DNA from: Aotearoamyces nothofagi
Lineage: Eukaryota; Ascomycota; Leotiomycetes; Leotiales; Tympanidaceae
Direction: 5' to 3'
Assembly (NCBI GenBank): GCA_015345905.1
Contig: JADDTR010000035.1
Coordinates: 1-64,000 of the forward strand
Length of the DNA: 64,000 nucleotides
The notes beneath the pieces are model-generated. The model saw nothing but the letters and a program-made list of their open reading frames with translations. It had not been told where the DNA came from and did not search any database. The stretch's first letter is position 1, and the number at the start of each line of letters is the position of its first letter. The position numbers and the translations under genes were made by a program. This document shows positions 9,587-44,739 of the stretch, piece by piece.

Positions 9587-11301
9587 TCATGCGATCCAGG
9601 CTAGTATTCTGCCCCAAATAGAAGTTGGGACCTTGATACTCCACACAGTATCATCGTATTCGGAGCAGCCTGTAACAATATCCGCCTCTGATGCCTTCAC
9701 AAAGCTCGTCTTCTTTATAATCTTGTGACCTACGTACAACAGTACAAATAGGATCAAGCTAATATAGTTGACAAAGAAACTTGATGTATCCCATGGAATA
9801 AATGACGTGAACCCTTGCGTGAGGATAATCAACACGTTAAAGAATAGACCATAATATGAGAGGAATGGCTGCCATATCGCTTTATATGGGAGCGTGCTGC
9901 GAGGAATATTGCGCTGGGAGAGGGCGCGCATGAATGCTATATGGCAGCCATTGATGCATGCCCAAGTAATAAATCCTGCAACTCCTGAAATGTCGAGGAA
10001 CCAGTTAAACACGGTTCCACCGCTGTTGGAAAGGTTCAGGAAGGCGAGGAGACCAAATAAAGCCGTGAAAGCAACAGCAGGATATGGGACTCCTTTCTTG
10101 GTAGTCCTGAGAAATATGGCAGGCGCAGAGCCATCTTGTGCGAGACCCAGGAGAACACGGCTACCAGAGTATACGTTGGAGTTTGCAGCCGAAGACACGA
10201 CGAAGAGAAGGACCGCATTTATGAGACCTGGGAGAGTTTTAACACCAGCAAGGTTCGCAGCGATGACGAAGGGCGACGCGGTAGCGTCAGACGCAGACGA
10301 CAAGAGCTGATCGTTTGTGTAAGGAATTAGGAGGCCAATGAAGAATATGGTGAAGACGAAGAATAGCAAGATACGATAAAATGTCTTCCGGATAGCAGAT
10401 GGCACGTTCTTGCGAGGGTTCTCAGTCTCTCCCGCCGCAAGTCCTACTAATTCGGTACCCTGGTACGAAAACCCCGCCTGAATTAGCACAGCCCAGAACC
10501 CAACAAACTTGGCAAGAGGGCCGGTGGAGTCTAGAAGATATGGTGCGAAGGCGCCGGGATTTGACCAGGTTTTGAATCCAAGATACCCCTCCTGGCCTGC
10601 TCCAGCATCAATACAAATGCCGAAAATGAGGAATCCAACGATAGTGATAACCTTGATGGATGAGAACCAAAATTCCAGCTCGCCGTAGAAGCTGACCGGC
10701 AGGAAGTTGACAGCAGTAATGACGACCCAGAAGACGGAAATAAATATTCCTATTGACAGATTTGGGGCCCAATATTGGATAATCAAACCCGTGGCAGTGA
10801 GCTCCAAGGCATAGGTAAAGGCCCAAGAGAAGAAGTATATCCATCCCATCGCGAAGCCCAGGCTGGGGTCGACAAATCGTGTGGCATACGAGGTAAAGGC
10901 TCCGGAAATTGGGATATAGGAGGCCATCTCTCCGAGAGCAACCATAACAGAAAAGACAATTGTTCCAACGAAGGCATAGGCAATGAGGGCTCCTGCCGGG
11001 CCAGACTTTGAGAGCGCTCCACCGCTACCGATGAAGAGACCTGTGCCGATTGTGCCACCTTGGGATAATTAGCATACATCCTCTCAAGAACGAGAAACTG
11101 GCATGGAGACACACCGATTGCGATCATCTGCAAGTGTCTGCTCTTCAGCCTCCGCTGCAAGTCTGGGAATTGGCTGACGCCCTTCTCGGCATCTGGTGCA
11201 GAAGAGTCATAGTCGGCGCCGTGCGCACCGGAGTATCGCGCAGTGATCACATCGACATCTGGCGAGGCTACAGCCTTGTCGGTCGCAACATGCCGAGCCA
11301 T
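9587..11301 (-). CDS. Amino-acid permease of the YAT (APC) family
   Basis: Plasma-membrane transporter that would import amino acids by proton symport. Exons 11301-11115 and 11058-9587, with a 56-nt intron (GTGTGT...CCCAAG), give 552 aa. The intron splits the first conserved loop, and splicing restores IGGTIGTG, the substrate-backbone-binding motif of TM1, at about residues 62-69. The following sequence contains about twelve hydrophobic segments. The family signature is strong in TELVGLAAGETENPRKNVP. The acidic hydrophilic N-terminal tail (about 50 aa) is usual. The next in-frame codon upstream of 11301 that opens the frame is not ATG, so 11301 is chosen. It may border the terpenoid cluster; amino-acid substrate cannot be read from sequence. 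Confidence 0.93.
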
Positions 11302-12542: not shown

Positions 12543-14769
12543 CTATGAAGACTGCGACATCAACCCAATCCGATCTAGAGATCGTGGGGCTATTGAGCAA
12601 TCATAATGCTCTAGATGACTGGGGCGTTTGGGTTAGTAGCGCTATATACAGACAGAGCTGCGATGTAGTGGTGCTTACTTCACAATGCCAGTAATAACCT
12701 GCGGATCAGGCGTGATCTCGGTGCCATCTGCCCTCTTGGCCTTCGTAAGGTTAAATGCCCAGAGAAGAGTCGTCACTGCAAGCCATACGGTGCCTCTACC
12801 AACATGCTGACCTGGGCATGCTCTGTTATGGGTTAGTATATAAGGTTGATAGTGTAGAGAAGTCTCTTGCCTGCGTCCTAGTCCAAAGTGGCTTATAGGC
12901 AATGGTTCACCGAGTCCACCTTCGCTAACTGGAGTATATCGGTCGGGATTGAAAATGTTGGGGTTGGTATATACTGTCTCGTCGTGTAGGATTGCGTGGG
13001 CATTGAGGAGGACTGTAGCTCTGTTTGGTGGCATTAGTATTGCGCTTGACTGGATTTGATTTTGTCAAGCAGCCTACCCTACAGAGTTATCAGTATGCAC
13101 ATTTTCACAGACTGCGAAACGCGATTCGCCATACCTTTAGGAATAAACATTCCGTTATAAACATCATCCTGCAAACACAAGTGTGGAGCCCCTGTTTATC
13201 GTCAGTATATCCATTCATGTTCTTAGCGTTGAGGGACGGCTATACCGAGGGGTGCTACCGGAACCCATCTGCTTTTCACATTAGAATTGTTTTATCGTGA
13301 AATATGTATAACTTGCCTCATAGATTCCTGAATAATCTTCTCCACGAAAGGGAGTTGATCCCGATGACTGAAGTTTGGAACAGTGTGCTTATCGATAACT
13401 CGGTCGACCTCAGCTTGTGCCTCGGCTTGAATGTCCGGGTTGTTCACCATCGCAAGCATGAAAGTTTTAATGGTTTGGAGTATCTAACGGTAGACTAGAT
13501 TAATAATTGGGAAGTTTCAGCTCCTACGATTGAACTCACTGTATCTTGACCTCCAACATACATAGTAGCCGCTGCTCCTTTGATGTCTTCATCTGTCATC
13601 ATTGGATCTGCTTTCCCGTTCTCCTTGAGTTCCAGCTGGCTCTTTAAAAAAGAAGTTCTTGCTTCTCCTTTAGCCTTAAGATAATAGTTAGTAGCAACTT
13701 TCTCATGGATAAAAGAGGATTGTACCATTGCTTCCTTGACTGCATCGTAAGGGACATTGCACATATTCCGAACATGGATTTGGCCCGAGCGGCAAATTCT
13801 GAGGGCTTTGATGAATTTTACGCTGTGCGGTAGCCGCCGAACTTAGAAATGCATTAGCAGAATCAACCAAAGAGGCTCAGACTATTGAGACTTACGAATT
13901 GGAAAGACATCGACGAGTGTTGCACCGGGAGTGCCACCACACTCGAGAGATTTCGCAACTGAATCTGCGAGATTGATGTAGGGATCATCATCTCTTGTAA
14001 TATCAAACCCGTATGTGATGGTTAGAATAGTGGCGGTAGCATACCTATGTATTCATCAGCAGGTTACTACAGTTGATAAGAGCTCTTGAAGGGGTAACTA
14101 ACCAGGAGAGCGACCGGTCCCAGTCTTGAGGATTTGCTGAAAGACGGGTAGCGAATCTTCTAATTTGTAACTCTTGAACGTGATGGTAGTTGATACACAC
14201 CGATGGTGACAATGCATTTTTTATCATCTTACGATGCATGCGAAAGACAGGACCAGCAGTAATGAATGGGAGCGATTTTTTCCAACCCTGTCTGCTCGAT
14301 CCATCAGCAAACTTGCTCGGTATACCACAATAGATTTACAAACTCCTCGAAGTAAGGAACGACCGGTCTTCCACAATACAGAGACCCTCTTCTCTCCAAT
14401 AGTTCGTGGCCTGCTGTGGCCGTATTCACGACAATAAAAGGCTGGCCCAAGAAGTGGACGTATATGAGATCGGAATCTGCAGCTATTAGCACTTTGGAGT
14501 TACACTGGCTTCGACTACTCGCTGTATTCCTTTGACCATTTTTTGAAGGTAAGCTCGGGTCTGTTGAGAGGGACGTAGCGGACATGGCCAATGATAGGAT
14601 CACCAGGTGGGCCTGGTGGCAATGGCAAAGCTGAAGACCTCTTGGAATTGCGACGGTACGAAGTAATTGCTAGCCCTATGAACAGAACAATAGATAAAAG
14701 AATGAAGCCGCTGCGTCCGAAGGGCTGTGGTTGTGTCTCCAGCAACCGATTCATCGAAAGCGACGGCAT
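12543..14769 (-). CDS. Cytochrome P450 monooxygenase, ER-anchored, 11 exons
   Basis: Heme-thiolate monooxygenase, probably oxidising the terpene made by the neighbouring synthase. Exons are 14769-14523, 14476-14340, 14287-14103, 14044-13896, 13841-13540, 13483-13317, 13268-13246, 13191-13135, 13018-12871, 12822-12679 and 12618-12543, giving 544 aa with reading phase closing at every junction. An N-terminal membrane anchor (GFILLSIVLFIGLAI) is followed by the proline hinge LPLPPGPPG. The I-helix region reads MYVGGQDTILQT, with Gln in place of the usual acidic residue before the Thr. The K-helix ExxR is E393-R396 (ESMRW). The heme loop is FGLGRRACPG with Cys474. The C-terminus CSIAPRS is typical of fungal P450s. 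Introns 1, 6 and 9 start with GC (GCGAGT, GCAAGT, GCAAGA). It is divergently placed to the terpene synthase. Confidence 0.93.
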
Positions 14770-16564
14770 CTTGGGAGAGGTGAACCCGGCTGGCAAATTG
14801 GCGGGCAGAGAGGACAGAAGGGTATTGGAATTGGCAGACAGATCCAGCAAGTCTGTAAGCTTAAGCTATGGACATGCTATATATATGCCATATACATGCC
14901 ATGTGAATACCCCAATCCGCTTGGAAGCGTGTCGTCCTGTAAACGGCAATTCTCATCAAGCAACGATACCTCGCGGGCCCGCACCCCATTATTCGGGGCT
15001 CCACATTATTGTTGCATATGCACACTGCAGCTCTTTTGCCAACGCAGACAGAATCCCGCGATCTGCAACGCAGACCGAGGAGGGCATGCCAAAACCAGGG
15101 AGCAAGCCCGGCCAGTGGAGTGCAGATACTGACGGAATGACGGAATCAAAGCACCATTCTCGCATGCAGCATGCAGGTATGGTATCGATGATAACGTTGC
15201 CCCTGCCCCTCCCTCCGCCCGTGCCGCTCTCTGCACCGTCGGTGCAGTGCGAGGCATGCCATCTGTGATCTCTACAATATCTACAAACCCTTGCTGTTCT
15301 CTTCTATCAGAGTAAGCAAGAGCACGTCAAGTCAGCGCCTCAACAGAAGAGTGTATGTGGTGTGTAGTATGCTTATTATCTTATCCCCTATCCCTTATCC
15401 CTTATCTCTTATCCGAGGCGCGTATCCTTCCCTTACCCGCAAATCAGATATGCCGCCGCTAGCCGATTTCGGGATTCTCAAGACTCCAGGATTCTACTCC
15501 GTAGGAACCCTTGATCCCACGATGGCCTCTTCGACTCTTCCTTCCTACCAATATGCTAGAAGGCTTTGCTAACTGAGCTGTCCAGTCCAGGTATGCTACC
15601 CCTAACCCTGCAGACCGGCTCCTACTCCTCTACAACCCGCCCCCCATGGTGCTCCACCATGACAGCACACTTAATGCACCCAGTGCTCCTGGATGCGAGA
15701 TGCTAGATGTGAGATGCTTCACAGGTGGATTCTGGCTACTCATGGTCCTGGCCTCCGCTCACTTCTTCCCGTGACGATCATCTCCTGGGTTACCTAATCC
15801 CTGGCCTGTATTGGATGCCATTTACTTGGACGGGTCCAGAGCCCACGCAAGCCTGGATTGCTGCATTATCCGCCTATGCTCCGTATACTCCATCATCTAG
15901 CAGCCAGTCAGTGGTATTATATGCACTTCCCGTCAACTCCGAAGCATGATTGCGGAGCCATTTCTGTCATTTGTAGCAAATCAATCTTGCTAGCTTCGGT
16001 ATGCCTGACCAAGAACTTGGATTGTGCATTTGAGACTCCACGTTCCTTTCGAGTACACACCATATCATACCACGCTTACGAGAGCATCCCATGAAGCCTT
16101 CGTCCACAGTTCAAAACATACCATGTATCCTCTGGTCCTAGACCGTACACTAAGGCTACTCAGCTACTGGGCTTTTATCTTGAAATCAGACACGATTCCT
16201 TGGCGTTCGAGCTATGTCTCCATTGGTCCAATGCATTGCCAGCGAAGAGGCATGAAGATTTATTGAACAAGGAGCAGATAGCCCTGTTGAGAGAGGGGCG
16301 GATTGGCCTATTTTGCAGGGAAAATGATATCAAGTCCCCAGGGACGGAGGGGCACTTGCTCTTAACACCGAATAAGGCATCATTCTCCACTCTCCTTCTG
16401 CCCGCGGGTATCGCTGTTGGAGATAAGAGAGACTATGCACTGGTCCAAATGCTGTTTGGCTTTAGATGTCTTAATTCCTTATTACTATGCGAAAGGCCAT
16501 CCTTATCCAAGAAAGTTGCTCGTCCCATCCTCGTATCCAGAGAAAACAATAGTCCAGAGTCAAA
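14770..16564. promoter_or_regulatory. Shared upstream region of P450 and terpene synthase
   Basis: 1.8 kb between two divergent genes, so it must hold both promoters. Seen inside: alternating CATGCTATATATATGCCATA-type sequence at about 14,875-14,905 close to the P450 start, and a CCCTTATC-type 8-bp repeat near 15,380-15,415. Short open frames exist but none has splice support. Confidence 0.5.
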
Positions 16565-18127
16565 ATGTTGACCCAACCTTCTTCCGAGCACCACCAGCTC
16601 GCTGCATTATTCAATGGCTTGAATGGCCAGGAACTCATTGTTCCGAGTCTGAAGACCATTCATCCTGGCTGGGCATTGGAGAGGCACTCTGACTACGAGA
16701 AACTGGGCGAAGACCTCAATACGTGGTGTAAAGGGTATACCTTCTGCACATTGGTTCTCTTAGTACTCCCTTGGACACAGATCTGATGCATTGCTTGATT
16801 TAGCTGGTGGACGGACTCGAGAATTCGCGGCATGCTTGAAGCCCTTGATCCAGCACTATGGACTGCTCTGTCGTACCCAAATATCTCATATGACAAGCTT
16901 CTATGCATAGGCAAGTGCTTGGCGTGGGTAAGTAACATAGGCATTGCGTACCTTCAGATTATCATAACTGATATTGCAGATTTTCGTCTGGGATGATGCT
17001 ATTGATGATGGAAAGTTTACGCATGATATCGAGGGAGCACTGAAATATGAACAAGAGACACTGATATTCATGGAAGATTGCTTCAATCCAGAGAAAGACA
17101 CTCTTTCCTTAACCCATGAGGATCCTGCAATCGAATCTTTCAAGGACTTTGCGCATGAAATCCGCGTCACTGGATCTCCTAGTAAGGCTTCCGTTGGAAC
17201 CTTAAGTGTTGTTACTAAGGCAGTTCCCGTTGCAAGCCAACGCTTCCTCGAGGAATGCCGTGACTGGGTCATATCAACGGCCGACTGCCAGAAACAGCGA
17301 GTCAAGACCGATGTGCCACAACTAGACAGTTATCTAAGGCGGAGGTCCCTCAATGTTGGTTTCTATCCATACATTGCATTGATTGAGTGCGTCGGCTTCC
17401 ATTCTTTGATGATTCTGGCTCTATATCTAACACAAGTCAAGATATGCCCATGATATCAGCATCCCGGATAAATGGTGGAAATCCAATGTAGATATGGAGA
17501 TCATATGGTATAACTCTGCTGTATTAGCTTTCATGTAAGTAAATTTTGCATCGATAACCTTACTAAATATCCCTTAGACTAATAATTTATAGCACGAATG
17601 ATATGGTTTCATTGGCGAAGGAGCTGGTAATTATACATTCTCGTCTACTGCCACGGTAATTATTCTAACCTTCAATTAGATTGCCGGACAGTTTGAAAGC
17701 TGGATCCCCCTCACTATGTACCATCGTGGTTTGTCTGTACAAGATGCCATGGATTCAACTGGCCAATTGGTCCTCGACGCATCTACTCATATCGTCGAGG
17801 CTGAGGAGCGCCTCTATAAGGATGTAGATCCAGAGCATCTTGCCGCTTTAAAAACATTCGTGCAAGGCATCAAGCACATTGATGTGTGTTGTCTCCAGCA
17901 TCCGTGAGTATCCCTATAACTCCCTTGACCAGACAATATAACTAATTTTTGCTAGTTATTCCTCGAACCGCTATCTAAAGCATGGTACGGTCCGACCAGA
18001 TGGGTCCATTCTTTTCAAGATGCAAATCAAAGGAGCGAATGAGCCTGTTTCCCAAACTGTGTCCGTTCAATCGACTATCAGCAGGCTACTCCGGCAGCTT
18101 GCAAAGTTCTTAGGATTAAGTATCTGA
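16565..18127 (+). CDS. Class I terpene synthase (fungal sesquiterpene-cyclase type)
   Basis: Ionises a prenyl diphosphate (most likely farnesyl diphosphate) and cyclises it; the probable core enzyme of the cluster. Seven exons (16565-16734, 16804-16927, 16980-17386, 17442-17534, 17593-17626, 17680-17903, 17956-18127) give 407 aa, in the usual single-domain range. Both metal-binding motifs are present: the aspartate-rich WDDAIDD (Asp103, Asp104, Asp107) and the NSE triad NDMVSLAKE (Asn267, Ser271, Glu275). LRRRSLNVGFYP between them matches the Arg-containing diphosphate-sensor helix, and SNRYL near the C-terminus contains the RY pair. All six introns are GT-AG. No prenyltransferase domain is fused. 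The product cannot be predicted, and a diterpene is not excluded. Confidence 0.93.
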
Positions 18128-18768
18128 TCTAACAAAGTTTGGTAGCTGGGGCCTCAAATAACATCTCATAGATACTTAGAAAGGTTAGAAAGTAGTTATG
18201 CTGATATCTATAGCTCATTCCATTGCTGCAAATATGCATTGTAAAGTGCCCAAGAGTGCGGTGATACGGCCCATCTATATATCTGGCTATGTATTATTGA
18301 TACCTTGCTCAGGTGCCTAGTGCTTACCATACTAATGAATAGAGTGTGATATTTCCCACGAGCACATCCAAACCAGTAACATCAGTCCAGAAAATTGATG
18401 TATGTGATACTGCAATCTACCCTCGGTTTAGACATTTTTATTTTTCAGTTTCGCAATAAAGGCTTAATTTGCAGGGCTGGCATTAGTAAATTTGCCAATA
18501 CACATTGCTAAAGAATGCAATACCCTTTTAAAACGCCCCTACTTTTCAACCCTATCCAAAGAAGGCTGGATGAGGGCTTGTTGATGATCGGTTTTTAATA
18601 GGGCGCATAATGTAAGAATATATACCGGAATAGCTTGTATTTCTGACAGAGTAGTAAACAGTATATGCCCCTTATATAGACCGATTGAATGATGCCAAAT
18701 GAAAAAGGCGGAACATTAAGAAATCATAACCAAATTAACTATTCTATATTGCTGTCTTGTATACCTTG
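18128..18768. other. Convergent 3' flank of terpene synthase and GMC oxidoreductase
   Basis: AT-rich, no coding signal. Expected to hold the poly(A) regions of the two converging genes. Confidence 0.6.
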
Positions 18769-20448
18769 CTACAACTGGGATTGGATTGCTATGTCATGAC
18801 CAATCTTCTCCCCAATGACATAGACGGCGGCCTGAATATGAGCAGCGAAGGGAAGTGGGATAATGCTGGCATCCGCTACTCTCAATCCATCAACTCCAAT
18901 TACACGAGCCGACGAGTCCACCACTTTCCCCATGGCACAGGTACCCATAGGATGATCCATCCCTGCGCCGAAGTCACGTACACGAGCTATGATATCTTCG
19001 TCGGAGATATCTGCAGTGATCGGAGTGTATCCGGCCGGAGCCGTCTCTTCTTCAATGATAGATCTACCCGCTACCGTCTCCGCGAGAACACGATGCAGCT
19101 GTCTTACCCCATCAACAAGAATATGGCGATCGATGTCAGTACTAAAAAAGTTGCTGTCAATGACTGGCGGAGACGACGGGTCGGCCGACGAAATGGTTAT
19201 ACTTCCCCGCGACGTAGGAGTCAAGAGAACGACAAGACTCGTCACAACAGAGCCATCAAACGGCGCATCTGTCCCTGTTTTATCTTTACCTAGTGGGGCA
19301 TAGATAACAACCTGCTCCAGATGACAGGCGCTCTTTTGCAGCAGAAGCTTTTCCGTCTCTAGGGTTACGGCATCGCTGCTCGTTTGCAATTTGGTCCTCA
19401 ATGCTTCATTTCGAGCAGACCCGAACCGAATGAAGTCAACGGGCCACCCGTTTAATAGGGCAGGATCAATCTTAAGAGCAGGCGACCCCAGCGAAAGACC
19501 TCGCTCAGCACCTTTCAGTCTCCACGTGCTGAACAAGACCAAGTGATCGGAAAGATTTCGCCCGACTTCCGGATTATGATGCACGAGGGGTATAGAGAGC
19601 TTGTTCAACACTTCTCTGTCGCCAATCCCGGACAGCAATAGAAGCTTGGCTGAACCGAAGGCGCCAGACGATACAATGACCTCTTTCCTGGCAGCTATCT
19701 TCCTCCCGCCAACGAGCTCAACCCCAACGGCTCTTGGCGTTCCAGATCCTGTATCAAAGGTGATCCTATGCACCAGGGTATTGACGAGAAGCGTGACGCC
19801 AGAGAGGTCGTAGAACTTGTTAGGAAACTGTCTCTTCTGTTCCCGAAATAGCTGTGTAAAGTCCGTCAGCCCATTTGGCAGGCCATCATTCCCATCGCCG
19901 ACATATTCGACGCCGGCCTCTTCCCAGGCTTTCTGCAAAATGTCACGGAGAGGCCACCTTGCCTCTCCTTGTGCATCAGCATTCACCCTTATGCTGTGCA
20001 AGGGACCATTGTAGCCATGATTCTTCGCATCTCTCCTTCCTACGTCTTCTGTTTCCGTTAAGCGAAAATATGGGAGGAGGGCCTCGTATTGCCAAGCCTG
20101 GTCTCCGACCATCTCAGCCCAAAGGTCGTAATGGCTTGATGGGCCTCTTGTCCAGGCTCCGCTATTGATGGCAGAAGTGCCACCAAGAGCCTTGCCCACA
20201 TCATAAAGTGCTCGGCGGTTTCCCAGCCCAGGATTGGGTTTAGAGTGGAAGTGCCATGCGTGCCGGCCATGCTGTACTGTACCTATTCCTTGGGAGCTGA
20301 CTGCTTCCGGATCATCCGACGCATCAATGCCGGCCTCAATCACAAGAACGGTCGCATGTGGAAGTTTGTTCTTGAGGCGAGCGGCGATTGTCAATCCAGC
20401 TGTTCCGGCACCAACAACAATATAGTCGAAGGAATCGGGTTCTGTCAT
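18769..20448 (-). CDS. GMC-family FAD oxidoreductase
   Basis: Flavin-dependent alcohol oxidase or dehydrogenase. Single exon of 559 aa, no intron, in the normal family range. The ATG at 20448 puts the Rossmann motif YIVVGAGTAG at residues 9-18; the upstream extension of the frame has no ATG. The second FAD segment GKALGGTSAIN is present. The C-terminal substrate/FAD signature DHPMGTCAMG and the catalytic His in PFAAHIQAA are intact. There is no signal peptide, so it is probably intracellular, unlike secreted aryl-alcohol or glucose oxidases. Its position between the terpene synthase and a methyltransferase suggests it oxidises an alcohol in the terpenoid pathway (inference). Confidence 0.93.
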   Translation of the reverse strand: MTEPDSFDYIVVGAGTAGLTIAARLKNKLPHATVLVIEAGIDASDDPEAVSSQGIGTVQHGRHAWHFHSKPNPGLGNRRALYDVGKALGGTSAINSGAWTRGPSSHYDLWAEMVGDQAWQYEALLPYFRLTETEDVGRRDAKNHGYNGPLHSIRVNADAQGEARWPLRDILQKAWEEAGVEYVGDGNDGLPNGLTDFTQLFREQKRQFPNKFYDLSGVTLLVNTLVHRITFDTGSGTPRAVGVELVGGRKIAARKEVIVSSGAFGSAKLLLLSGIGDREVLNKLSIPLVHHNPEVGRNLSDHLVLFSTWRLKGAERGLSLGSPALKIDPALLNGWPVDFIRFGSARNEALRTKLQTSSDAVTLETEKLLLQKSACHLEQVVIYAPLGKDKTGTDAPFDGSVVTSLVVLLTPTSRGSITISSADPSSPPVIDSNFFSTDIDRHILVDGVRQLHRVLAETVAGRSIIEEETAPAGYTPITADISDEDIIARVRDFGAGMDHPMGTCAMGKVVDSSARVIGVDGLRVADASIIPLPFAAHIQAAVYVIGEKIGHDIAIQSQL

Positions 20449-22290
20449 GACCCTGCGAGAAGTAGCGAGCAAGAGATAGAGGTACGTAGCAGCACTGGTT
20501 GGGCTACAGCGGGAACAACAGAGCACGAATACTGCCTAGGCACGGCGGCGGGTTGGAATTGCACAAGATCATATATTATATATTTACTGATCGCATGATT
20601 ACTCGTGACGTGGCATCCCGAAACACTCAAAATTTCCCGAGATGGGTAAGTGTTGACGATCCCTGAGAGCGGATACTCGAGGACGATTGTGCTTTGGTAT
20701 CAGACCAAAGAAAGGTTGAAAGAGCAAAGATTGAGTTCCCTCGCTTTTGCCTATATAGAAGGAACCGGCGGGTTAAAGAAATGCGTCTGGCTACATTTAC
20801 TCTATTTCAAAACCCCCTTCAACGTTCATTTGGCCGAACATCGCAGGGTTGATTGTCTCTTTTATTCCAGCTCGAGGCTCTTCAGTATGCCGGCCTTTTC
20901 CCCCTTCCAGTTTAGCATCGGTAGGATGCCTCTGTTCTGGCCCTTGTCGCCGATTAGATCAGTTCGTTGACAGGGTATAGGATCTAAGAGTGGGCGAGTA
21001 TTGTGTTAAACTTCCATCGGGGAAGTTCCTGGCATATAATTCCAGACAGAGCACTTCAAAATCAAATCGGCACAAACTATCAAGTACTAAAGCATAAATA
21101 TATGTTCGACGATGCCGTATCTGCCCCCTCGCTCGCTTAACTTGACCTTCCCCAGCTTCTCCTTTCTCCTTATGGCTATGGACTTTATCGATTCTCGAAT
21201 GGGCACAAGGCAGTATCAGTAGACGAGAATACCTGGACACTTAAATTCTGATTCAGAGTAACCTCTCGCCGATACATGACATGATTTTTCTCTCTCTAAC
21301 TTCCAGACACTCAGCAGCATCAATCTACCGTCATTGCATCACAAATTATACCATGTCGTATGGCAGCTCAGACCAGCCAGGTGATAGACTGGTACTACAC
21401 AGCGCTGTAGACTGTTCGTTCAGCCCAGCCTTGAAGATCCAGCTCACCACTAGCGTAGTGCATTAAACGTCAAAGTATTGAAGCGCATGTAAGAGTTCGT
21501 CTAATAGCCAGACAAGGCTTTACAGCGTCTATGATGGGAGAAGAGCACGAGAGCTTCGGTGACCAGGAGATAGAGATGTTAGAAGAGAAATCTTGAGACT
21601 ATTTGGAGAGCTGGCATGAGATAGCTATGCCAGGAAGGTCACAACAGGAGACCGTCTGCGATCACCGGTAGGTGGTTAGTTCTGCCAATTAGTTGTTGGT
21701 CGTGGTGGTAGATACTGCTACTGACTCGGAGATCTCTCTCTCCACGTCAACGATGCCCTCTATCTCTCTCATCGATGCTCAATCTCTAGCCATCTTTAGC
21801 CGCCGGGCGTCTTGAGGCTTCTTGAAACCCCAGCAAGCAGTCCACGACGACCGACACTCAATGGCCTGCATTAATGCTGTACTGCCGTGCACATTAATTA
21901 TCAAGGGGTGCATGCACGTCAAGCAATGACGCGAACCAAAGTGGGGCCTGCATGTTCCGAGGCGAAGGTGCTGGCCTGATCTGGCCTGACCGTCTGATCA
22001 TCGTCGTACCCCGTCTCTCTGCGGAGCTCTTTCCACATCCGTCTTGGGTACGATAACCCGTCTGGCATTTGGGGTAGGCGAGTACAGTTCGGATAGAAAT
22101 GGAATTAACAGTGTACCAGATCATCTAGAAGACCCCCCTCGATTCTGCAGTGCGGGCACTTCGAGGCTCGCTACCAGTCGCCGTCACCATGCACTCTGTA
22201 TACAAGGCTTCTATCAGCCATCGTTCGTAGTAGAATTGTGCCACCTTCGCCAGCCAACCAGCCGTCTATATACCATTTCTATATACCATT
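20449..22290. other. Intergenic, GMC promoter and methyltransferase 3' flank
   Basis: 1.84 kb without a supported gene. Many short frames; the stretch 21,700-21,900 is pyrimidine-rich with ATCTCTCTC-type runs. The first few hundred bases form the GMC promoter. Confidence 0.5.
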
Positions 22291-23634
22291 TCATTCCTTT
22301 GCCGCTAATAAAGGTTTCTGCGCATACACAGCGTAGAACGGGTAATACGAATGAGACTTCCGGTTCCTGATATCTTTCCTCACCCCCGCCAGGAACACAC
22401 TAGTCTTTTCCGCGCTCCAGCCTAGACCCTTCTGGAATACTCTCATGCTTATGCTTTCTAAGTGCATGCACAAATTCTCCTGCTCAAAAGCACCAACGAT
22501 CCGTAAACGCGGATCTTTAGGCCAAGGACTTGTCGGCATCTTGAAAACCTTCTCTGTCACTCCCTCGAATCCCGCAGCCTCGAATGCTGCCGCATATCGC
22601 TCTGGGTCCTCAAGCGGTGTACCGAAAGCTGTTGAAGCCTCGCGCAGGAGTTGGTCGTATTTGCTGAATTGACTATCAGCCATGAGGGTGCCGTCATCAC
22701 AGCTAAGAACCCCGTGGATGCATTGAAATTCGATCCAGCCACCGGGTTGAAGATGTCTATTCAGAATTGTTACTGTTGAACCATATAGGGCTCTGAGGTG
22801 TAGAGAAACCTACTCGAAGCATTCTCTAACCAGGCGAGGCAGGTCTCGAATACAAAGGAGCAGATCACGGGCGAAGATGTAATCGAAACTTTCTCTTTTC
22901 CATGTCCAGGGTTGCTCGATGTCATCAATTTCGAAGTGGCAGTTTGGCGAGGTCCTAGGGAACAGAATGAATTAGCGTCTATAAAAGGCAGCAGAAGTAA
23001 ACCAGCCACTAACCATTTCGGCTGTATAGGAGCAATGTCAACACCAGTTACCTATCGAGAAGTCAGTGTCACGCTAAGCCACTCGACCGAAGGTTGATTT
23101 TTACATCTGCAGACGGATACGCATCAGCAAAGTCAATGCTCCAGATCCCTACAAATGGCGTCAGCATAATGTTTTCTCAGCAAGTGTCCCCAGGAAAGAA
23201 GGAGGCCAAAAACTGACCAGTTCCACAAGCAAGGTCCAGGACTTTCTGCGGGTTCGCGGGAATGGGGGCGAGCAGTCGCTTTTTGTTTAATAGCATGAAG
23301 TATTTCGTATGAGCCATGTCGATTCTGTCCATCTCTTGTTCGTCCATTGGCGCGCCATATTCTTGGTGGTGTTGTCAGTTGCTCTGCCATGAGAGCTGGC
23401 TCCAGGTTGCGTAGACGAACCTTCTCTGCCATACGAAGCGTAAGTTCTCCCATTTTCCTCAACCCCTCGCACGACGCTAGAAGCCAAGGATGTCAGGGAA
23501 CTGTGTCCGTCTCCTACGTCGGCACCCTGATCTGAGTTAGAAGGCGTTCAGTCTTCATGGGCAGGTGGGTAGGGCCGAACCTCGTCGGTAAAAGGCTCAT
23601 CGTCAGCCTCAATAATGTCAACTTGCTCTGCCAT
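22291..23634 (-). CDS. UMTA/LaeA-like SAM-dependent methyltransferase (copy 1)
   Basis: Class I methyltransferase, substrate unknown. Seven exons (23634-23581, 23526-23421, 23361-23218, 23148-23105, 23051-23014, 22954-22814, 22756-22291) give 330 aa in closed phase. The family hallmark ENGRTYASY precedes MDEQEMDRIDMAH. SAM motif I is VLDLACGTGIWSIDFAD, followed by VTGVDIAPIQP. FDYIFARDLLLCI and HLQPGGWIEFQC form the later motifs. The C-terminus YYPFYAVYAQKP is usual. Intron 1 uses a weak GTTCGG donor, so the first 18 residues are the least certain part. Homologues are common in fungal secondary-metabolite clusters and include UstM. It shares an upstream region with the divergent O-methyltransferase. 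Confidence 0.88.
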
Positions 23635-24258
23635 TGCTTTCAGGTGTTCGGCCTTAAAGCATCGTTCGCGGGAAGGGTCTACAGACGTTGCAGCAGGAGG
23701 CAGTGAATGCTGAGCGTATTGTCCAAGAGGTACAGGATCAGGATGTATGTACAGGACAGGACGAGGGATGGATGCACGATGCATGGGACGCGCAGCGGCT
23801 CAGCACAGCGTAAGCGCGCATCACGTGGCACGCAGCCGGGTCGATTTTAGTATGGCTATGGCGGGCCGCGACAGGCCCGCCGCGGAGCGGGCATCGCCCT
23901 TCCGGCTGCTAACAAGACCAGCGTAAACCAGACGAGGAACACTACAGAGTCGCTTAGTGGAAATGGAGGGAATGTGCATCCACCGGCGCTCTTGCCCACT
24001 CAGCCGCTGCAGTAATGTGCCCTTGACATGCCCTGGCCATGCGATGCCTGCATGGACGTACGTCCCTGCTCCGTCCATCACACTCCATCCGGCCACACAC
24101 TCCGCGTGCGGTGGCCGGGGGATTGAGGGTCACGGTGTCCTCGCACTTCTCGATCCTCTCCTGCCATATCGCATATACATTGATAACAAGCCGCGCTGCC
24201 CCTATCCTTCTGCTTCAGAGACCTTTCCGTACTCCCGTCCTGCTTGAAACCTAACGCA
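23635..24258. promoter_or_regulatory. Bidirectional promoter of UMTA copy 1 and O-methyltransferase
   Basis: 624 bp between two divergent methyltransferase start codons, noticeably GC-rich. A shared promoter is implied by the geometry; no specific factor site is identified. Confidence 0.55.
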
Positions 24259-25644
24259 ATGGCACCACCTGCACCACCTCTCGGCCCGAACGCAGAGTTG
24301 ATTGAGGCCGCGAGTGAGTTTGCAGCGGCGGTCAAGGGGTTCCAGGGCGATCATGCTGAGCACCTGCGCCTGTTGAAGCAGGCCGATAAGCTGCGGATTT
24401 TGCTAGAGACCCCGATGGATGTGATTATGAAGCAGTGGGAGTCTAGTATTACCATCGCGGCGATGAATCTGCTGGTCGAAATGGGGGTGTTGGAGGCGAT
24501 GCCGAAAGACGGGTCTATCAGCTCCAAGGAACTAGCTGATATTATTAAAATCGACGAATCTGCTATAGGTGGGGATTTTCACGTGATATGAATGTTCAAG
24601 ACGGCTAACAATGAACCTCACCTAGCACGAGCGCTGAAGCTCATCGTAATTAGTGGTGTTTGTGTTGAGACAGCTCCTAATGTCTTTGCCCTCAATGCCA
24701 ATGCCCACGCATTCCTCAAGGGAGGGGCAGTAGAGTTTTTCAAGTTCTCCATTGATCAGACCGGGCCTTTCTTGAAGCTACCCGAATACTTCCAAACACA
24801 TAAGCAAGAAGATCTCTATGATCTCAAGAAGTCGCCGCATGCATGGGCAGTAGGGCTCGAAGGGTCCACTTACTACGAGGCCATATCTACCGATCCTAGG
24901 ATGCTCCACAACTTCAACTTCACCATGTCGACGTCGGAGAAGGTCACGCCCCTCCTCGGCATGTTCCCTTTTTCCAGCATGAAAGAAGAAGTTGAGGCCG
25001 ACCCCTCTCGGCCATTCGCCGTCGATATCGGAGGTGGGAGAGGTCATTTACTTCTAGCAATCGAGAAGGAAGAAGCACCTAATGGGTTTGGTGCAAAAAT
25101 GATTCTCCAAGATCGGCCAGACGTGATAGATGCGTTGACGGTTGAAGACATTCCAAACATCGAGAAGATGCCTTATGATTTCTTCACTCCCCAGCCCGTC
25201 AAAAGTGTGATCTTTCGCACATTAATGCTCTAATTCGTAGCTAATAATGTCTAGATGCACACCTGTACTTGATACGCCACATCCTTCATGACTTCTATCC
25301 TCCAGTTTGCGTCAAGTTGCTGAAAAATGTAGCTGGAGCAATGGGGCCTTCATCTCGATTGATAATCGCAGACATGGTCATGCCAGAGAAGGTGGAGTTG
25401 GGGACTGAGATAACGCCATACTGGATGGACTTCAACTGTAAGTTGCAGCTTCAAGACTTAGTCTGATTCGTTATCTAAACTAACTCCAAACTCCCCCTCT
25501 CTAGTGATGATGCTGAACGGATCCGAGAAGTCGAAGAAGCAGTTTGAGGAGATTGTAGATGCAGCTGGACTGGAGATCGTGAAGATCTGGCCATTTGCTT
25601 TTGGAACGAACGCAAATATTGAGTGCCGTTTGAAGACTGTCTAA
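24259..25644 (+). CDS. COMT-type O-methyltransferase
   Basis: SAM-dependent O-methyltransferase (methyltransferase_2 family) acting on a hydroxyl of a small molecule. Exons 24259-24568, 24626-25204, 25255-25437 and 25505-25644 give 403 aa. The N-terminal helical dimerisation domain has a winged-helix region (residues about 45-140). The SAM motif is VDIGGGRGHLLLAI (residues 236-249). The catalytic base region is RHILHDFY with His308-Asp309, matching the HD pair of plant and fungal COMTs. The third intron position just after WMDFN and the C-terminal IECRL are usual for fungal members. The gap between exons 1 and 2 carries an in-frame stop and must be spliced (GTGGGG...CCTAG). Probably a tailoring enzyme of the terpenoid cluster. 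Confidence 0.92.
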
Positions 25645-26421
25645 GGCATCGAAGCAAGGAGTCAACATTTCGTGATTGGGCTACGGAAGTTACACCCCGA
25701 ATTTTATAATGTCACGGGGCCTGGTGGGGTATATATGTCTATTTCCGATGCACAAGTAGGAATACTCTCAAGGATTTGCCACCCAAAGGCCTACAGGAAA
25801 AGGAGTTTTCAGGGGTAACAAGTCATGTGCACGCATTTCCATGTTTCCAAGTAGATATCTTTGTATTGCCGAGGCACCGGTGAAACTTCAGTGCAAAACC
25901 TACACTAACCCTTCGGGCTATGCAAATATGATAGCCCAGTAGTAGAACTCTCCCTGGATTCACTTAGCTCAGAGATAGTCTAATCAATAATATATATACC
26001 TCTTAGTAAAGCTTTGGATAATAGTAAACTCCAGAAGTAATTTATTATTTACAAAGACATTATATTAGAGTTTTACATTGATTTTTGACAAATATATATA
26101 TATTATATATATAACTATAAGTTAATCTCATAACTATATAATAATAGTATGAGAAGCACGAGTATACTTTCATCGCGAGTCCCGTTATTTTAGATATTTA
26201 TCCATCCTCTTTTACAAGATTCTAATCGTCTAGACAAACACATAGCTAATAGAGGGGCATTAATGGAGTCATTTTGAAGGCATTTTGCTCACTAACTTCA
26301 TCTACCCTAAATTAAATATGCAAAGATATCATCCAACGCCGATTCCAAATCAAAAACCCGCAATTAGGCCGTTAACACAACATGCTGAACCGTGTGCGAT
26401 AAACCCATGGGACTACTCGAG
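25645..26421. other. AT-rich convergent intergenic region
   Basis: Low-GC stretch with a TATATA tract near 26,088-26,110. No coding signal. Contains the 3' ends of the O-methyltransferase and the dehydrogenase. Confidence 0.6.
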
Positions 26422-27550
26422 CTATGCCTTGTGCTTCATTAAGTGCTTATTCACCGGGCTCAGCGCATCCTCACCCTTCAGTACAGCATTGATATTCTCC
26501 ATCGCCAACCGCTCAAATCCGAAATGGGTCTCCAGCGTTCCTCCTCCATTATGACATGTCAAAGTCACATTCTCCATCTTTGCTAACCGCTCATTCACCA
26601 CTGGCTCATGCTCATGCACGTCTAGCATAGCAGCATGCAGCCGCCCGCCATCTAGTGCATCTGCTAGTGCTTCTTCGTCGACGAGACTGCCCCGCGCGAT
26701 ATTCACGAAGCGTGAACCGTGCTTGAAATTTGAGAGCGTGGAAGCAGAAATGAGCTTGGAGCCATCTGGGGAGCTTGGTGTGGCGAGGATCACACAATCG
26801 CATTCGTTGAGCATCTTTGCTAGATCGTCGTAATATGTCGCATTTACGCACTCCTCGGCTTTTTGGCTTTTCCGTACAACATCATGGTATAGTATCTCCA
26901 TCCCGAATGATGTATATGATTTCTTTGCAACCTGATATCCGATAGTGCCCAACCCAATGATACCGAGAGTATGACCTCGAGGATTGTGTGCCGTAGCGGT
27001 CGCTCTTTCGTGGCAGTCAAGGAATCTTGAAGTCGAGCCGGAGCGTGCAGCTTGTGTTGCCCATGTGAGGTTTCGAAAGGTTGCGAGAATGCCAAACATT
27101 GCGAAGTCTGCCACAGCTTCGGCACAAGCAGATGCGCTGTTGCAGTAGAGGATACCTGGAGGGCTAGTATTAGCATTTACCGTGTCCAGGAATCATAGGG
27201 AGAAGATAACGACCATAGTCCGCAAGAACATCAACATCTGCCCAATCAAATCCAGCACCGGCGCTCGCAAATACCTTGACAGACTCTGGCAGCAACGGGA
27301 CGAGCTCCTTATCCCAGCGGCCCATCTCACCGCCAGTACTCCAGAAAGGCCTGAAGATGGCGGAGAAATCGCCCCATCGTTTCTCCTTCAGTGCTCTGAT
27401 AAACTCGTCTCGCTGTCGTTCTTCAAGAGTAGGGCGTATAATGGTGAAATCGGAGGAGAAGCGCAGGTGCACGTCTGGGTTGTACTTCACCGGGTCACCG
27501 ATATGCAAGACAACTGGCCTCGTATCCTTTGGCGGATTGTGGGATGCCAT
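26422..27550 (-). CDS. D-isomer-specific 2-hydroxyacid dehydrogenase
   Basis: NAD(P)-dependent interconversion of a 2-keto acid and a D-2-hydroxy acid, similar to fungal D-mandelate/glyoxylate-type dehydrogenases. Exons 27550-27214 and 27155-26422 with a 58-nt intron give 356 aa. The substrate domain contains FASAGAGFDWADVD. The nucleotide fold has GIIGLGTIG (GxGxxG type). The catalytic set is present: Arg in IARGSLVDEE, Glu in DVHEHEP and His in CHNGGGT. Splicing gives YGILYCNSAS, a normal junction for the family. It sits between the O-methyltransferase and the second UMTA gene. A role in the pathway is possible, but the enzyme could equally serve primary metabolism. Confidence 0.92.
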
Positions 27551-28938
27551 TGCTGACTTTAGAGACACAAGAGAAAACGGCGGGAGGCTCAAACTGAGGG
27601 CTTAAGAGGTGCTGGTGGAGGTGCAGTGGAGGTGGAGACGGTTCTGCTCGCTGTGGGGTAGTCTAAGCGCCGCTGTCGTGGGCGATCGACGGTTGGTACG
27701 TTAGAATGAATTCATCACGTGTACAGGTCAGTTAATCAATATCAGGTAGGTGGCAGCAAGAACTGGAAACCGGGCAGCGCGGTGGCCGCACACGTATTAC
27801 TGTGCTGTACGTAGCTGAATACGGTACTGTGGCTCGGCGACGGTGAGTGACCGCAGCGGGCGGTGTGCGCGCCGACTGGCATGCCATCCATGAACTGCAG
27901 CAAACCAGTACGGCATTGTTTGGTCCAGATGTCAGGTGACAGCTGTAATGCAATGCTTCTTGTAGGTAGAGTGTTGGAAAATTCGGTGCATAAGTATATA
28001 ATCACTGGAATGCTACAGTACAGGATGCGACAGTATAAGGTGCTGTAGCATAGGGGCAGAAGGAGTAGATTGATACTGATATGATATCAGCCCTCTGCCC
28101 GGAGTAGCCAGCCTTATCTCTTATCTCGTACTAAGTTATAGGGGCCGGCTGGCTGGAGGGCCGTGAGTGCCTGGGGCTCGTAGGCTACAGTCCAGTGGCT
28201 GGCTATGCTGAAGAGGTCTTCGCCTCAGGCATGCCATAGATTGATGGGCTAAGCGCTTGGAGTGCTACCCACGTACTTCCTTGTCTTCTGGCCCAGGACC
28301 CTTCACCCACCTCCACATCTACACCACCACTACACGCCATGCCTCCGTCCTCTTCTGTTTGTGACAATGTAAGCAAGGAGACCCGAGTAAGTATGTTTCA
28401 ATCTTCTGTCCATTATCCCTTACTGCGTTGGGCGCTGCTCGCCGGACGTTGATCCCTGCTGTATAATGCGGCAGTACACAGTACGAAGTATATGCATTGC
28501 TGCCGAGGTAAGCATCAATATACATAGGGATGCTATCATATCTCAGATACGTGCTTCGTCCGCAAAGCGTCAAGATCGGCCATGATTCCTTGTACTCGAT
28601 CGAGGATCGTTCTTATTGTAAAAGGGACGAACCAATTGGAAGAATGCCGTAGCGCCGCACAGGAGCAGGACCAACAGTACGAGCGGGAACTACGGACGGG
28701 GAACGTCAAAGACGATCCGGAGTGTCCACAACTTATCCTGGCGGCTCATACGACAGCCCCGCCAGCTTGCTTTCCCCTCCTCCTTTTTCCGCAGTCCATC
28801 GGGTAGGCGCGTACGTAAAGGCGCCGCATGTACTTACTCTGGAACTCGTGTTACAATCCTACAACTTATCGCTGCAATCCAGCTTCAAAATAACATCTTC
28901 TTCATTATAACCCCGTACAACCTTGCGCCGCAGTATCT
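27551..28938. promoter_or_regulatory. Divergent upstream region of dehydrogenase and UMTA copy 2
   Basis: 1.39 kb holding both promoters. No additional gene has splice support, and no clear transcription-factor palindrome was recognised. Confidence 0.5.
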
Positions 28939-30590
28939 ATGGCCTTGCAACCACCATCGGCGACAAATGCTACACCTACGGCGACAGACGGGACTGACGC
29001 CACAGAAGTCACCACGGAGGCCACTACCGCTACAGGGAATTCGGCTACAGTGTCCACTACCCCAGAAGAACTGGCCGCAAGAGGCCATATAGAAGCAGAT
29101 GTATGCTATCCGATAATATGCACTCGATATCAGATCCAATTTAGATAGTTTACCACTGATGTTGACGTAATTAAACAGACCAATGATGGAGATGATTATT
29201 CTGATTACGAAAGTCAATTTTCTGATAGCACATCCATATCGTCGTCTATATTCAACTACGAGTACGAAAACGGACGACGATACCATGCATACCGTGCTGG
29301 GCAATATGTAAATATTACGATCCATATATCCTGAAGGGTGCTTACGAATCAGCTATTGCCAAACGATGAAACCGAACAAGAACGCTTGGATATGGCGCAT
29401 CATATTTCCACGCTGTACTTGAAGGGAGATTTGTGCGTGACCAAGTTGGAAAACCCGCAGGCGATATTAGATATCGGTACCGGAACAGGCATTTGGGCAA
29501 TCGAGAGTAAGGATGGCGAGTCAATTATGACTGTGAGATCCTGAGGATTAATGCCAATATAGTGGGAGATTTGTACCCGTCTGCAGAAATCACTGGCACG
29601 GATCTCAGTCCTATCCAACCGGGCTGGTGAGATTTCATTGCCCAATTTATAAAATTTATTTTAATTTACTTTAGGGTTCCCCCGAATGTCCATTTCATGA
29701 TAGACGATGCTACTCAAGAATGGTCTTATCCTACTAACTATTTCGATTTTATTCATATCCGTATGCTAGGCGGCAGTATCTCCGATTGGCCCCGTCTCCT
29801 GGCGCAGGCTTATAAGTAAGTCTGATACACACATTGATCAAGCTAGTGGAATACTAAGGATGATGAGGCACCTCAAGACCGGCGGGAAGATTGAGATTGC
29901 AGAGGGCCGTACGCAGTTCTTCTGCGACGATGGCACCTACCCAGAAGACAGTTACGCGAAGAAGTGGCAAGTACGTCTAATTTCCCTCTAATTGTTTTTT
30001 GATTTTCTGCCTTATATTCTTTCCGACATGCGGCTACGCCCTCCTAACATCATAGCAGGTTGAATTCAATCGCCTCGTCGAAAAGATGGGAACAGAGTTC
30101 GACGTAATCCCGAAAATCCCCAAGCTCCTTACTGATATTGGATTTACGTCGGTTAAGCAACACGATAATACTGTACCTGTAGGTATGTATAATCTTTCAT
30201 GAGGTTACAAGCCTATCTACGACAAATTGCACGAGAAACGGAGATGGGAAAACCTCACAGAATGCAGCGCTAAAGTCCGTTCCTCCTCTCAGGAACCTGG
30301 CCTAAAGAGCCCGCCCTCAAACATCTCGGCGCCGTCTTGCGCCTCGTGATCATCGAGTTCGGCCTCGAGGCATACAGCTTGGCGGTGTTCACCCGAAGCG
30401 GCTGGACAGAAGAGGAGACGAAGGTCTTGATTGCGCATGTGAGGCGCGAGCTGAAGAGCAACAAGTTTCATCTCTATACTCTTTTGTGAGTTGGCCCCTG
30501 CCCTGTATAGGGTGTTTTGGAAGTACAGGGCGGAGACTGATGGCGTTTAGCACACACGTTACTGCTACGAGGCCGGAGACGGCGCAGTGA
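28939..30590 (+). CDS. UMTA/LaeA-like SAM-dependent methyltransferase (copy 2)
   Basis: Nine exons (28939-29100, 29179-29307, 29353-29506, 29563-29626, 29675-29815, 29859-29970, 30059-30182, 30293-30485, 30551-30590) give 372 aa in closed phase. The N-terminus is Thr/Ala-rich and probably disordered (about 55 aa). The hallmark YENGRRYHAY is followed by YLLPNDETEQERLDM. SAM motif I is ILDIGTGTGIWAIEMGD, followed by ITGTDLSPIQP. The last intron is optional: if it is retained, the protein stops at a TGA at 30486-30488. The spliced tail THVTATRPE fits the family better. It resembles copy 1 in motif order but is clearly divergent, so the two are not a recent duplication. Confidence 0.88.
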
Positions 30591-31153: not shown

Positions 31154-34100
31154 CTAGTCCCACTGGATCTTCATCGTCGTGGGGATGGGATAGGCGGCGC
31201 TCCAGTCGGGGGTCAGGTAGGTCGTGTAGCCGTACGGCGCGGGGATCTTCTTGACCTCGCCCTGCGGGCCGGGGGCCCTCCTCAGCCCGTCGAGCTTCAT
31301 GACGGCTTTGAACATGGTGGTCATGGCGATCTTGCTGGCGTCGAGGCCGGCGCATTGGTGCGGGCCCCAGCCGTAGTGGATGTAAGAGTCCAGGTCGCGG
31401 TCGAGCTTGATCTCGGTCGGGTCGGGGAAGGCGAGCGGGTCTGTCGAGGCCTTGACAACGTTGACGAGGAGGCGGTGACCTTTCTTCAGGTGGATGGTTT
31501 GGTCGCCGTCTTGGATTGTGACGTCTTCTGCGGCGTCGCGGAAGAGGCCCGCGGTGGAGCGCAGGCGGGCGCCTTCCATGAAGCTGAGGCATGTTAGCTA
31601 TCGCGCGTCTGTCTAGGAGGAGTCAGCTTACTATCTGAGGATTAATTCGTCGGCTTCTGGGGTATCTAGTTTGGCGAGAGCATTGAGATTTGGGATATAC
31701 TTGGCCCCAGGACCCAGATAGTAGTCTAGAACTTGAGAAAAGAGCTGAGACTGGTTGGCTGCCATTGCTGCCGCGGTAGGAAGCAGTTGTGACCAAACAA
31801 CATCCTTGACACTCAAACCGCTATCTAGGAACCTTTGGATCATATGGGTGCCGTAGTCAGTGAGTCCGGTCTTGGTGTGTAGTTTCGCAATAACATCGGC
31901 GATGACTCCGGTATGCGCGATAGCTTCGACGTTGAACAGAATTAGTTCGCCGAGCTGCGCAGCTAACTGCTTCGCGGCGTTCCGAAGCATAAAGGATTTC
32001 GAGACGTCGATATCATAGAAGATGCTGAAGAAGAGAACCGAAAGGACTTGGAACAGCTCTTGTTCGGTGTATATACCAAGTGGGCATTGTTCTGTCTTGA
32101 GAGGAAGACTGAAGAGGCTCGCTGAGAAGTGTGTATGCGCCAGGTTTGCTACATCTCGGACAATATCGACCTGGTTTACGCCCCCGATCTTGTATGAATA
32201 CTGCTTGAGAAGCTTCGCTGTGATGTTTTCATAAAATTCTTTTACTTCCGTTGTCCATTTCTTGGGGTATAAGGCTTTCATTACCAACTTTCGTGACTCG
32301 GCATTGGCCGGGCCATCTCCAGCAAGACAGTAGTCGAAACCAAAGTGCTGCTTGGGATGTTGAACCAGGTACTCAATTGCTTCACCCCATGTAACCTTGA
32401 ACTTCTGCTTGTCTGCCAAGATCTTTGTGCCAGCCTCGTAGGTGTTGACTATCACTAGGTCTGGGATACGTACCGGTCGTGACCAGTCATACTGATCCGC
32501 TGTTCCTAGATTCTTCTGGATGGCTTCGTTTTCTTCGGGGATAACAAATGGGAAATGAGCATAGATGGAGTTGCCCTTGAAATGGTTGGGGAAAGCATTG
32601 AGGAACAACTTGTACATGACTTGTCCTTGATCGACCGTTAGATCATAATTGACCTCGGTAAATCCCCAATTTGTTAAATTTTTGGGAGTATAGTCGACGG
32701 TATAGAAGCGATCACCCCTGACTAGGGAAACTGCGTCAGAAAGAATGGCTCTGCTTGTTGTGTAGTTAACGCAAAGTCCTGATCCAGGCGACATTGCAGG
32801 CTTCGCTTTCTCAGCTACTAAGCCGGGATATAATTCAACGAAATCCGGCGAGTCATACAAATTCTTGAGCTTCTCAGCAACTGCAGGGTCAGGATTAATA
32901 TCCTCGAAGGTGGTGTGCTTCGTAAGCCCAAAAAATTGGCGGAACTCATTCAAGCTGGCCAAGTTCCACTTTCGCGCCTGGACGATACCAAGGATTTCAA
33001 CAGATCGTAGGATTTCAGGTACCCGATTGGCGCCGAATGAGCCTGCTACATCCTCGACAGATTCCGTGAGGATTTCAACTAGCCCGTCGTCATTGTAGGT
33101 GCCATCTTCTTGACGTTCCAGACCCGCGAATGGTCGTTTCTGTGGATCCACGTCAAGGGCAGCTTCCATCTTACTCAGGCCAGTTATCAAATCATGAATA
33201 CTCACGTCCTTTGGATCCTGGCCAGGGAATAGCTTTTTGTATTCTACTTGAGTCCACTTATCATCTCTCTCGGAGATAGCGGAATGCCACCGGTAGATAA
33301 GGTTAAATTCTGCAGACACCGAATTTCCAACACTGAATACCATTAGTTATCAAAATTAGCAGGGTTCTATAAGAGATGATATTGAATAGTGAATGAATCA
33401 CTTACGCTTCAGGGGCTGGCGTAGCGAACAATGTCTTCTTATCTGTTGCGCGGGGATCCAAGTCCCACGTAGACCCAGTTCGATTTAAGCTGAGAATAGT
33501 TCTAACGTAGTCCTTTAGAATGATGTTTACGTAAAGTCCGCAATTAATCAGACGGCCAGTTTGAAACAGATCGTTATCGTACTTTTCCCAAGCCGACTTT
33601 GCCTTGTCCTCTGGTAGTCCGTCCTTAGGTTTGTCAAAGCGACCATTTTCGTTAATTCTACAATTGTTAGGAAACTAAACGTGCTACTGACGGAAAAAAA
33701 GTAGCAAGAACACTTACAAGGCTAGTTGTGTAACAATATGGTTGTGGAAACGATTAAACATAATGACAAGGACGCCAACGCCTGGTGGAAACCCGAGAAG
33801 TCGTTTCTCAGAGAAGCAATCAGGCTTGATTTTGCCATCCTTGAACGTTCTCATTTCCTTCTGTTCATCCCAGTTGCTACCGTATAAGGGTGCTAGATCA
33901 AGATATGAAGAGGTCTTTGAGTTGTTAAAATCGACATGATCCTATCAGGACAGTTAGCACACCTCTAGTCATACCAATCGACTGGTGCTTTGATTCAAAA
34001 GCATGGAGGCTCAACATACAGTTCTAAAGAGGTCATGGATAATGATAGAAGCTAAGTAGAAGAGCATGCTGCTAATCTTATTCGGATGGGGCTCAAACTT

Positions 34101-39459: not shown

Positions 39460-39505
39460 GGGAGACGGGAGACGGGAGATGGGAGATGGGAGATGGGACA
39501 CGGGG
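39460..39505. repeat. 7-bp GGGAGAY tandem repeat
   Basis: Six to seven units of GGGAGAC/GGGAGAT in an almost pure purine run on the + strand. Confidence 0.85.
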
Positions 39506-40729: not shown

Positions 40730-40770
40730 GAAATCGAGGGAATCGAGGAAATCGAGGGAATCGAGGAATC
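40730..40770. repeat. Tandem ATCGAGGRA repeat
   Basis: Four near-perfect 9-10 bp units of AATCGAGGA/AATCGAGGG. Confidence 0.85.
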
Positions 40771-44607: not shown

Positions 44608-44739
44608 AATTGCTTGCGTGCCTGCTTGCTCGTTGGCTACTGGAGCGTGGATGTGGGAGACTTGGGCGGTCCTTGATATGCCGAATACTGTGCCGAGGTA
44701 GCATGTTATATAAGATAAAATACCATCTGGGATTAGGTG

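Follow-up and report, generated by a model that had tools for sequence, protein, structure and literature searches.

Gene content of the locus

We analysed a 64,000-nucleotide stretch of the genome of the fungus Aotearoamyces nothofagi (GenBank assembly GCA_015345905.1, contig JADDTR010000035.1, positions 1 to 64,000; hereafter the window), in which a class I terpene synthase gene is surrounded by genes for possible tailoring enzymes. Seven consecutive complete genes, as a first-pass annotation had proposed, lie across 12543–30590, the outer coordinates being the stop codons of the first (12543) and the last (30590). From left to right they encode a cytochrome P450 (12543..14769, minus strand; 11 exons, 544 amino acids; PF00067, E = 3.2e-59); the terpene synthase (16565..18127, plus strand; 7 exons, 407 amino acids; PF19086, E = 1.9e-30); a GMC oxidoreductase (18769..20448, minus strand; single exon, 559 amino acids; PF00732 and PF05199); a class I S-adenosylmethionine (SAM) methyltransferase, MT1 (22291..23634, minus strand; 7 exons, 330 amino acids; PF13489, E = 4.3e-19); a Methyltransf_2 protein (24259..25644, plus strand; 4 exons, 403 amino acids; PF00891, E = 2.8e-17); a D-2-hydroxyacid dehydrogenase (26422..27550, minus strand; 2 exons, 356 amino acids; PF02826, E = 5.8e-46); and a second class I SAM methyltransferase, MT2 (28939..30590, plus strand; 9 exons, 382 amino acids; PF13489, E = 1.9e-20). 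Three neighbouring pairs are divergent, in line with the earlier observation of several such pairs: P450 and terpene synthase, MT1 and the Methyltransf_2 gene, and dehydrogenase and MT2.

The gene models are predictions made without transcripts, from splice-site reading and homology, with sites chosen to preserve the frame and the family motifs. With frames and splice sites read by hand, all seven genes are in frame, end in a stop codon and contain no internal stop. All 7 proteins exceed the curated Pfam cut-offs in a scan that covered 30 proteins and open reading frames (ORFs) of the window. Pfam therefore backs each family assigned in the first-pass annotation; the name UMTA, which it gave to MT1 and MT2, is its own label, and Pfam returns only general methyltransferase domains there (Methyltransf_23/25 and others).

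GT opens 31 of the 34 introns in the six spliced genes, and GC the other 3. In these hand-read models the GC starts all fall in the P450 gene (3 of its 10 introns: GCGAGT, GCAAGT and GCAAGA, within 12823–14522; 0 of 24 in the other genes). Frame or paralogue comparison favours an unusual GAG acceptor at P450 intron 8 and possibly at MT2 intron 5. Both splice sites are uncertain. In the P450 intron (13019–13134) the acceptor is a poor one that the model requires to keep the frame intact; in the MT2 intron (29816–29867) splicing could use either of two acceptors that lie nine bases from each other, one of them possibly GAG, and the frame is intact with both, the alternative giving an MT2 of 379 instead of 382 amino acids.

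We found no sign of hidden genes in the eight intergenic gaps on either strand: each of the 16 scores of a home-made coding model stayed below the highest of its shuffled controls (up to 12 per score), and the same model scores 33–69 on the seven real genes. The scores nearest to the shuffle maximum were on the plus strand, in the gap between P450 and terpene synthase (14.9 versus 15.7) and in that between MT2 and the next gene to the right (6.5 versus 7.2). There are no direct repeats of at least 22 nucleotides within 12000–31500, in which three weak inverted pairs occur, and we found no tRNA or Rfam landmarks. An AT-rich inverted repeat lies at 25975–26118, between the Methyltransf_2 gene and the dehydrogenase gene.

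The terpene cyclase and its predicted product

The terpene synthase matches PF19086 (Terpene_syn_C_2) with 106.6 bits, against a cut-off of 23.7. Class I enzymes are defined by an aspartate-rich motif, an NSE triad, a sensor arginine and an RY pair. The first two are intact here, as had been claimed, with DDAID at residue 103 and NDMVSLAKE at residue 267; SSNRY occupies residues 353–357, with the RY pair at 356–357, and the sensor, R220, aligns with an arginine of the cyclase TaTC6. The closest solved structure is that of Terpene cyclase 6 (7w5f; E = 4.2e-26, 94.9 bits, residues 19–367), which we take to be TaTC6 of Trichoderma, a trichobrasilenol synthase. The next match falls to 3.8e-14, and the sequence relation to TaTC6 is itself remote. 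The top NCBIfam model, isoafricanol synthase, is that of a sesquiterpene cyclase; it scores 57.5 bits, far under its cut-off of 500.

TaTC6 converts farnesyl diphosphate (FPP) to trichobrasilenol, and its authors proposed an initial 1,11-cyclisation (PMC7687074). None of the 30 proteins and ORFs scanned was recognised as a geranylgeranyl diphosphate (GGPP) synthase. Because TaTC6 is the closest solved relative and no GGPP synthase was recognised, we infer that the product would be a sesquiterpene, formed through 1,11-cyclisation of FPP. In scans that reach close relatives only, no relative of the terpene synthase was found in prokaryote genomes (8 pattern matches) or in viral contigs (2 pattern matches), and none of the GMC oxidase in viral contigs (2 pattern matches).

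Candidate tailoring enzymes

The P450 has a hydrophobic N-terminal stretch, GGQDT, ESMR and the heme motif FGLGRRACPG. The GMC oxidase carries GAGTAG, HPMGTCAMG and AAHIQA, so that the FAD and active-site histidine stretches are kept, and its best solved match (8rpf, E = 1.7e-58) is named as an alcohol oxidase. SAM-type motifs are present in both MT1 (LDLACGTG) and MT2 (LDIGTGTG). Their 36% identity over 330 columns marks the two as paralogues; a search of solved structures at E = 1e-4 gave two matches for MT1 (best 3.2e-10) and none for MT2. A ‘UMTAM’ SAM-dependent methyltransferase has been listed for putative diterpene clusters of fungi (PMC4617483).

The dehydrogenase contains GLGTIG at residue 180, ARG at 266, HEHEP at 293 and CHNGG at 313, which supply the NAD-binding GxGxxG and the Arg/Glu/His catalytic set. 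It matches a D-mandelate dehydrogenase (2w2k, presumably from Rhodotorula) over 340 residues with E = 2.6e-77. A keyword search of open-licence PMC papers returned no joint mention of D-mandelate dehydrogenase and a fungal terpene gene cluster.

A candidate sesquiterpenoid gene cluster

The first-pass annotation had read the seven genes as a candidate terpenoid cluster, and that proposal is partly supported: a cyclase stands among six contiguous, intact genes for possible tailoring enzymes. Five of the six come from families that are common in secondary metabolism; the dehydrogenase family is not among these. Such an arrangement is not the default: a survey of 14 fungal genomes found nothing obviously suited to tailoring next to at least half of the terpene cyclases (PMC8403587). 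The three divergent pairs also count in favour of a cluster, as do the published precedents for a P450, terpene synthase and GMC trio (PMC8181146) and for a UMTAM methyltransferase (PMC4617483) in putative fungal clusters. We conclude that the locus probably holds a small sesquiterpenoid biosynthetic gene cluster of a filamentous fungus, comprising the cyclase, the P450, the GMC oxidase and at least one methyltransferase. The stronger claim, that exactly these seven genes belong together, we regard as doubtful. Some of the readings weighed below overlap with the preferred one, so that the likelihoods attached to them do not sum to one.

If the genes act jointly, the substrate, the ring chemistry and the order of steps could be as follows. 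By analogy with TaTC6, the class I cyclase would ionise FPP and form a humulyl-type cation in an initial 1,11-cyclisation. Hydroxylation of the cyclase product would fall to the P450, the GMC oxidase could take the resulting alcohol to an aldehyde or acid, and at least one of the three SAM-dependent proteins may methylate a hydroxyl or carboxyl group. For the dehydrogenase, a role in reducing an alpha-keto side chain and the status of an unrelated neighbour are about equally likely.

Several observations weigh against one shared pathway or are neutral. The match to TaTC6 is remote, and the product and the substrate proposed above are therefore guesses; the TaTC6 gene, moreover, was reported as not clustered (PMC7687074). 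The dehydrogenase, judging by its best match, resembles a general metabolic type of enzyme. No transporter gene was recognised inside 12543–30590. The earlier statement that no cluster-specific regulator is present is upheld to the extent that a six-frame translation of the window contains no Zn2Cys6 motif, a search that an intron-split motif or another class of regulator would escape. No word of 8–10 bases is common to the four promoter regions in what is a weak, low-power test; three seven-mers are shared, against a null mean of 14.4 (s.d. 19.1), and no eight-mer, against 5.5 (s.d. 32.7), the null being crude and skewed, with slices that can overlap, so that these means are unreliable. Among CGG/CCG pairs common to the promoter regions, nothing stands out. 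Finally, the gaps between genes, from the P450 rightwards and including the one to the next gene, measure 1795, 641, 1842, 624, 777, 1388 and 563 bp, and distance therefore marks no border. Both ends of the proposed cluster are arbitrary.

Alternative extents of the proposed cluster

A smaller cluster is possible, if doubtful: the cyclase, P450 and GMC oxidase (12543–20448), perhaps with one methyltransferase, would form the pathway, the remaining genes being unrelated. This overlaps with the reading that we prefer. The three genes are adjacent, and neighbours of the same three types have been published for Hypholoma (PMC8181146). In the brasilane (bra) pathway, too, the core genes number three (PMC8403587), and both the similarity of the dehydrogenase to D-mandelate dehydrogenase and the unclustered TaTC6 gene point in the same direction. 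The GMC oxidase and MT1 genes are 1842 bp apart, with nothing recognisably coding between them; the gap inside the core, between P450 and terpene synthase, is almost as large (1795 bp), however, and the occurrence of three methyltransferase-type genes close together is itself suggestive.

The genes could also be neighbours by chance, with the cyclase acting alone to make a volatile or lone terpene, and with MT1 and MT2 as LaeA-like regulatory or unrelated methyltransferases. This would fit the lack of a common promoter word (by the weak test above), the survey figure for cyclases without tailoring neighbours and the report that TaTC6 is not clustered. We nevertheless consider it unlikely, given that Pfam places five of the other six genes in families generally associated with secondary metabolism.

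Less probable still, in our view, is a larger cluster that would contain the one favoured here and extend rightwards. The next gene on that side (31154..34895, minus strand) encodes a fusion of a haem dioxygenase and a P450 (An_peroxidase, E = 8.6e-15 and 4.7e-08; P450, E = 2.1e-07), presumably a fungal fatty-acid dioxygenase of the Ppo/LDS type; these limits are those of its ORFs, and a likely ATG is near 34667. Beyond it, OPT domains lie within 35796–38605, which marks an OPT transporter. The dioxygenase stop is 563 bp from that of MT2, and the dioxygenase–P450 could be a cluster member or a mere neighbour. The extended cluster would take in this gene (31154 to 34.7 kb) and perhaps the transporter (35.8–38.6 kb). 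Fatty acids are the substrates of Ppo/LDS enzymes, however, which commonly occur outside clusters, and nothing ties the dioxygenase to terpene chemistry here. On the left, an amino-acid permease (9587..11068, minus strand; PF00324, E = 4e-138) is a possible outer boundary.

The last exon of the dioxygenase–P450 (31154–31597) is strikingly GC-rich (GC 0.644, GC at third codon positions (GC3) 0.892) relative to the gene core (GC 0.475, GC3 0.517), with the shift near the last intron; gene conversion could account for this, as could a patch of different origin. Further right, 38001–46000 has a GC content of 0.53–0.61 per 2 kb, against 0.39–0.55 elsewhere in the window. A run of long ORFs that may belong to a single gene occupies 58626–62853; it opens with a sacsin-type domain (PF25794, E = 5.6e-09), and the remaining three ORFs match nothing in Pfam.

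Methyltransferase or pericyclase

Methyltransf_2 is a family that includes O-methyltransferases as well as pericyclases of the LepI/ApiI type, and both kinds are among the best solved matches of the protein at 24259–25644: ApiI (E = 8.5e-39), LepI (1.1e-38) and 7wuy (4.1e-38), followed by OxaC (5e-33). We take ApiI and 7wuy to be pericyclases, and OxaC to be a methyltransferase. The protein could therefore be a SAM-dependent pericyclase and no methyltransferase at all, irrespective of how the cluster is delimited, and it is in favour of this that three such enzymes rank ahead of OxaC. We compared the protein residue by residue with LepI, numbering the LepI columns with an offset of 18 taken from the match coordinates. 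In LepI, the changes H133A, R197A and R295A greatly impair activity (PMC6533283). The corresponding columns of the alignment hold F144, K209 and H308, so the LepI active-site set is not reproduced, while D296 is kept as D309. The protein also has the motifs DIGGGRG and LHDF, and the histidine of the latter, H308, is the usual base of O-methyltransferases. ApiI, however, has LHD at the same place, and H308 alone therefore cannot decide between the two activities. With three LepI active-site residues replaced, catalysis of the LepI type is unlikely on this alignment, and ordinary methyl transfer is favoured. No polyketide synthase–non-ribosomal peptide synthetase (PKS-NRPS) or other polyketide–peptide partner was found among the 30 proteins and ORFs scanned, a further point against a pericyclase, which we judge to be very unlikely.

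Less probable again is that MT1 and MT2 methylate the carbon skeleton, or a prenyl diphosphate before cyclisation, to give a non-canonical C16 or C17 terpene, as happens in bacteria on the pathways to 2-methylisoborneol and sodorifen. The enlarged skeleton would then be the substrate of the dehydrogenase and the GMC oxidase; nothing at the locus specifically supports this.

Relation to known clusters

The combination of genes had initially been described as one not recognised from any described cluster. This is partly borne out: a keyword search of the open-licence PMC literature found no cluster with this gene set, and none appears in the available parts of PMC4617483, PMC8948911, PMC8401308, PMC8181146 and PMC3158057. 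The core of P450, terpene synthase and GMC oxidase, however, is already in print. A putative terpene cluster of Hypholoma fasciculare has a P450, a terpene synthase and a GMC oxidoreductase in a row, the same types as at 12543–20448; this likeness is one of enzyme types. The species is a mushroom, its cyclase is predicted to perform a 1,10-cyclisation and no methyltransferase or 2-hydroxyacid dehydrogenase is listed in the part available (PMC8181146). The bra cluster of the Hypoxylaceae, like the locus here, pairs its cyclase with a P450, and its third core gene encodes a sugar transferase, an N-acetylglucosaminyltransferase (PMC8403587). Instead of the latter, our locus has a GMC oxidase, three methyltransferase-type genes and a dehydrogenase. 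No glycosyltransferase domain was found in the 30 proteins and ORFs scanned, a search that a gene split into small exons elsewhere in the window could escape.

Gene combinations in fungi usually go unmatched, and the lack of a match is weak evidence of interest: in the 14-genome survey, singletons made up 277 of the 375 cluster families. The same survey counted 3 to 15 terpene clusters per fungal genome, and most cluster families were without a known product (PMC8403587). The locus is a plausible but ordinary kind of fungal terpene gene cluster. If its genes do form one pathway, the gain would be a sesquiterpenoid that is both oxidised and methylated, together with an uncharacterised cyclase that is distant from all solved ones. 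The locus would then be a reasonable target for heterologous expression, and the understanding of fungal terpene biosynthesis would stay unchanged.

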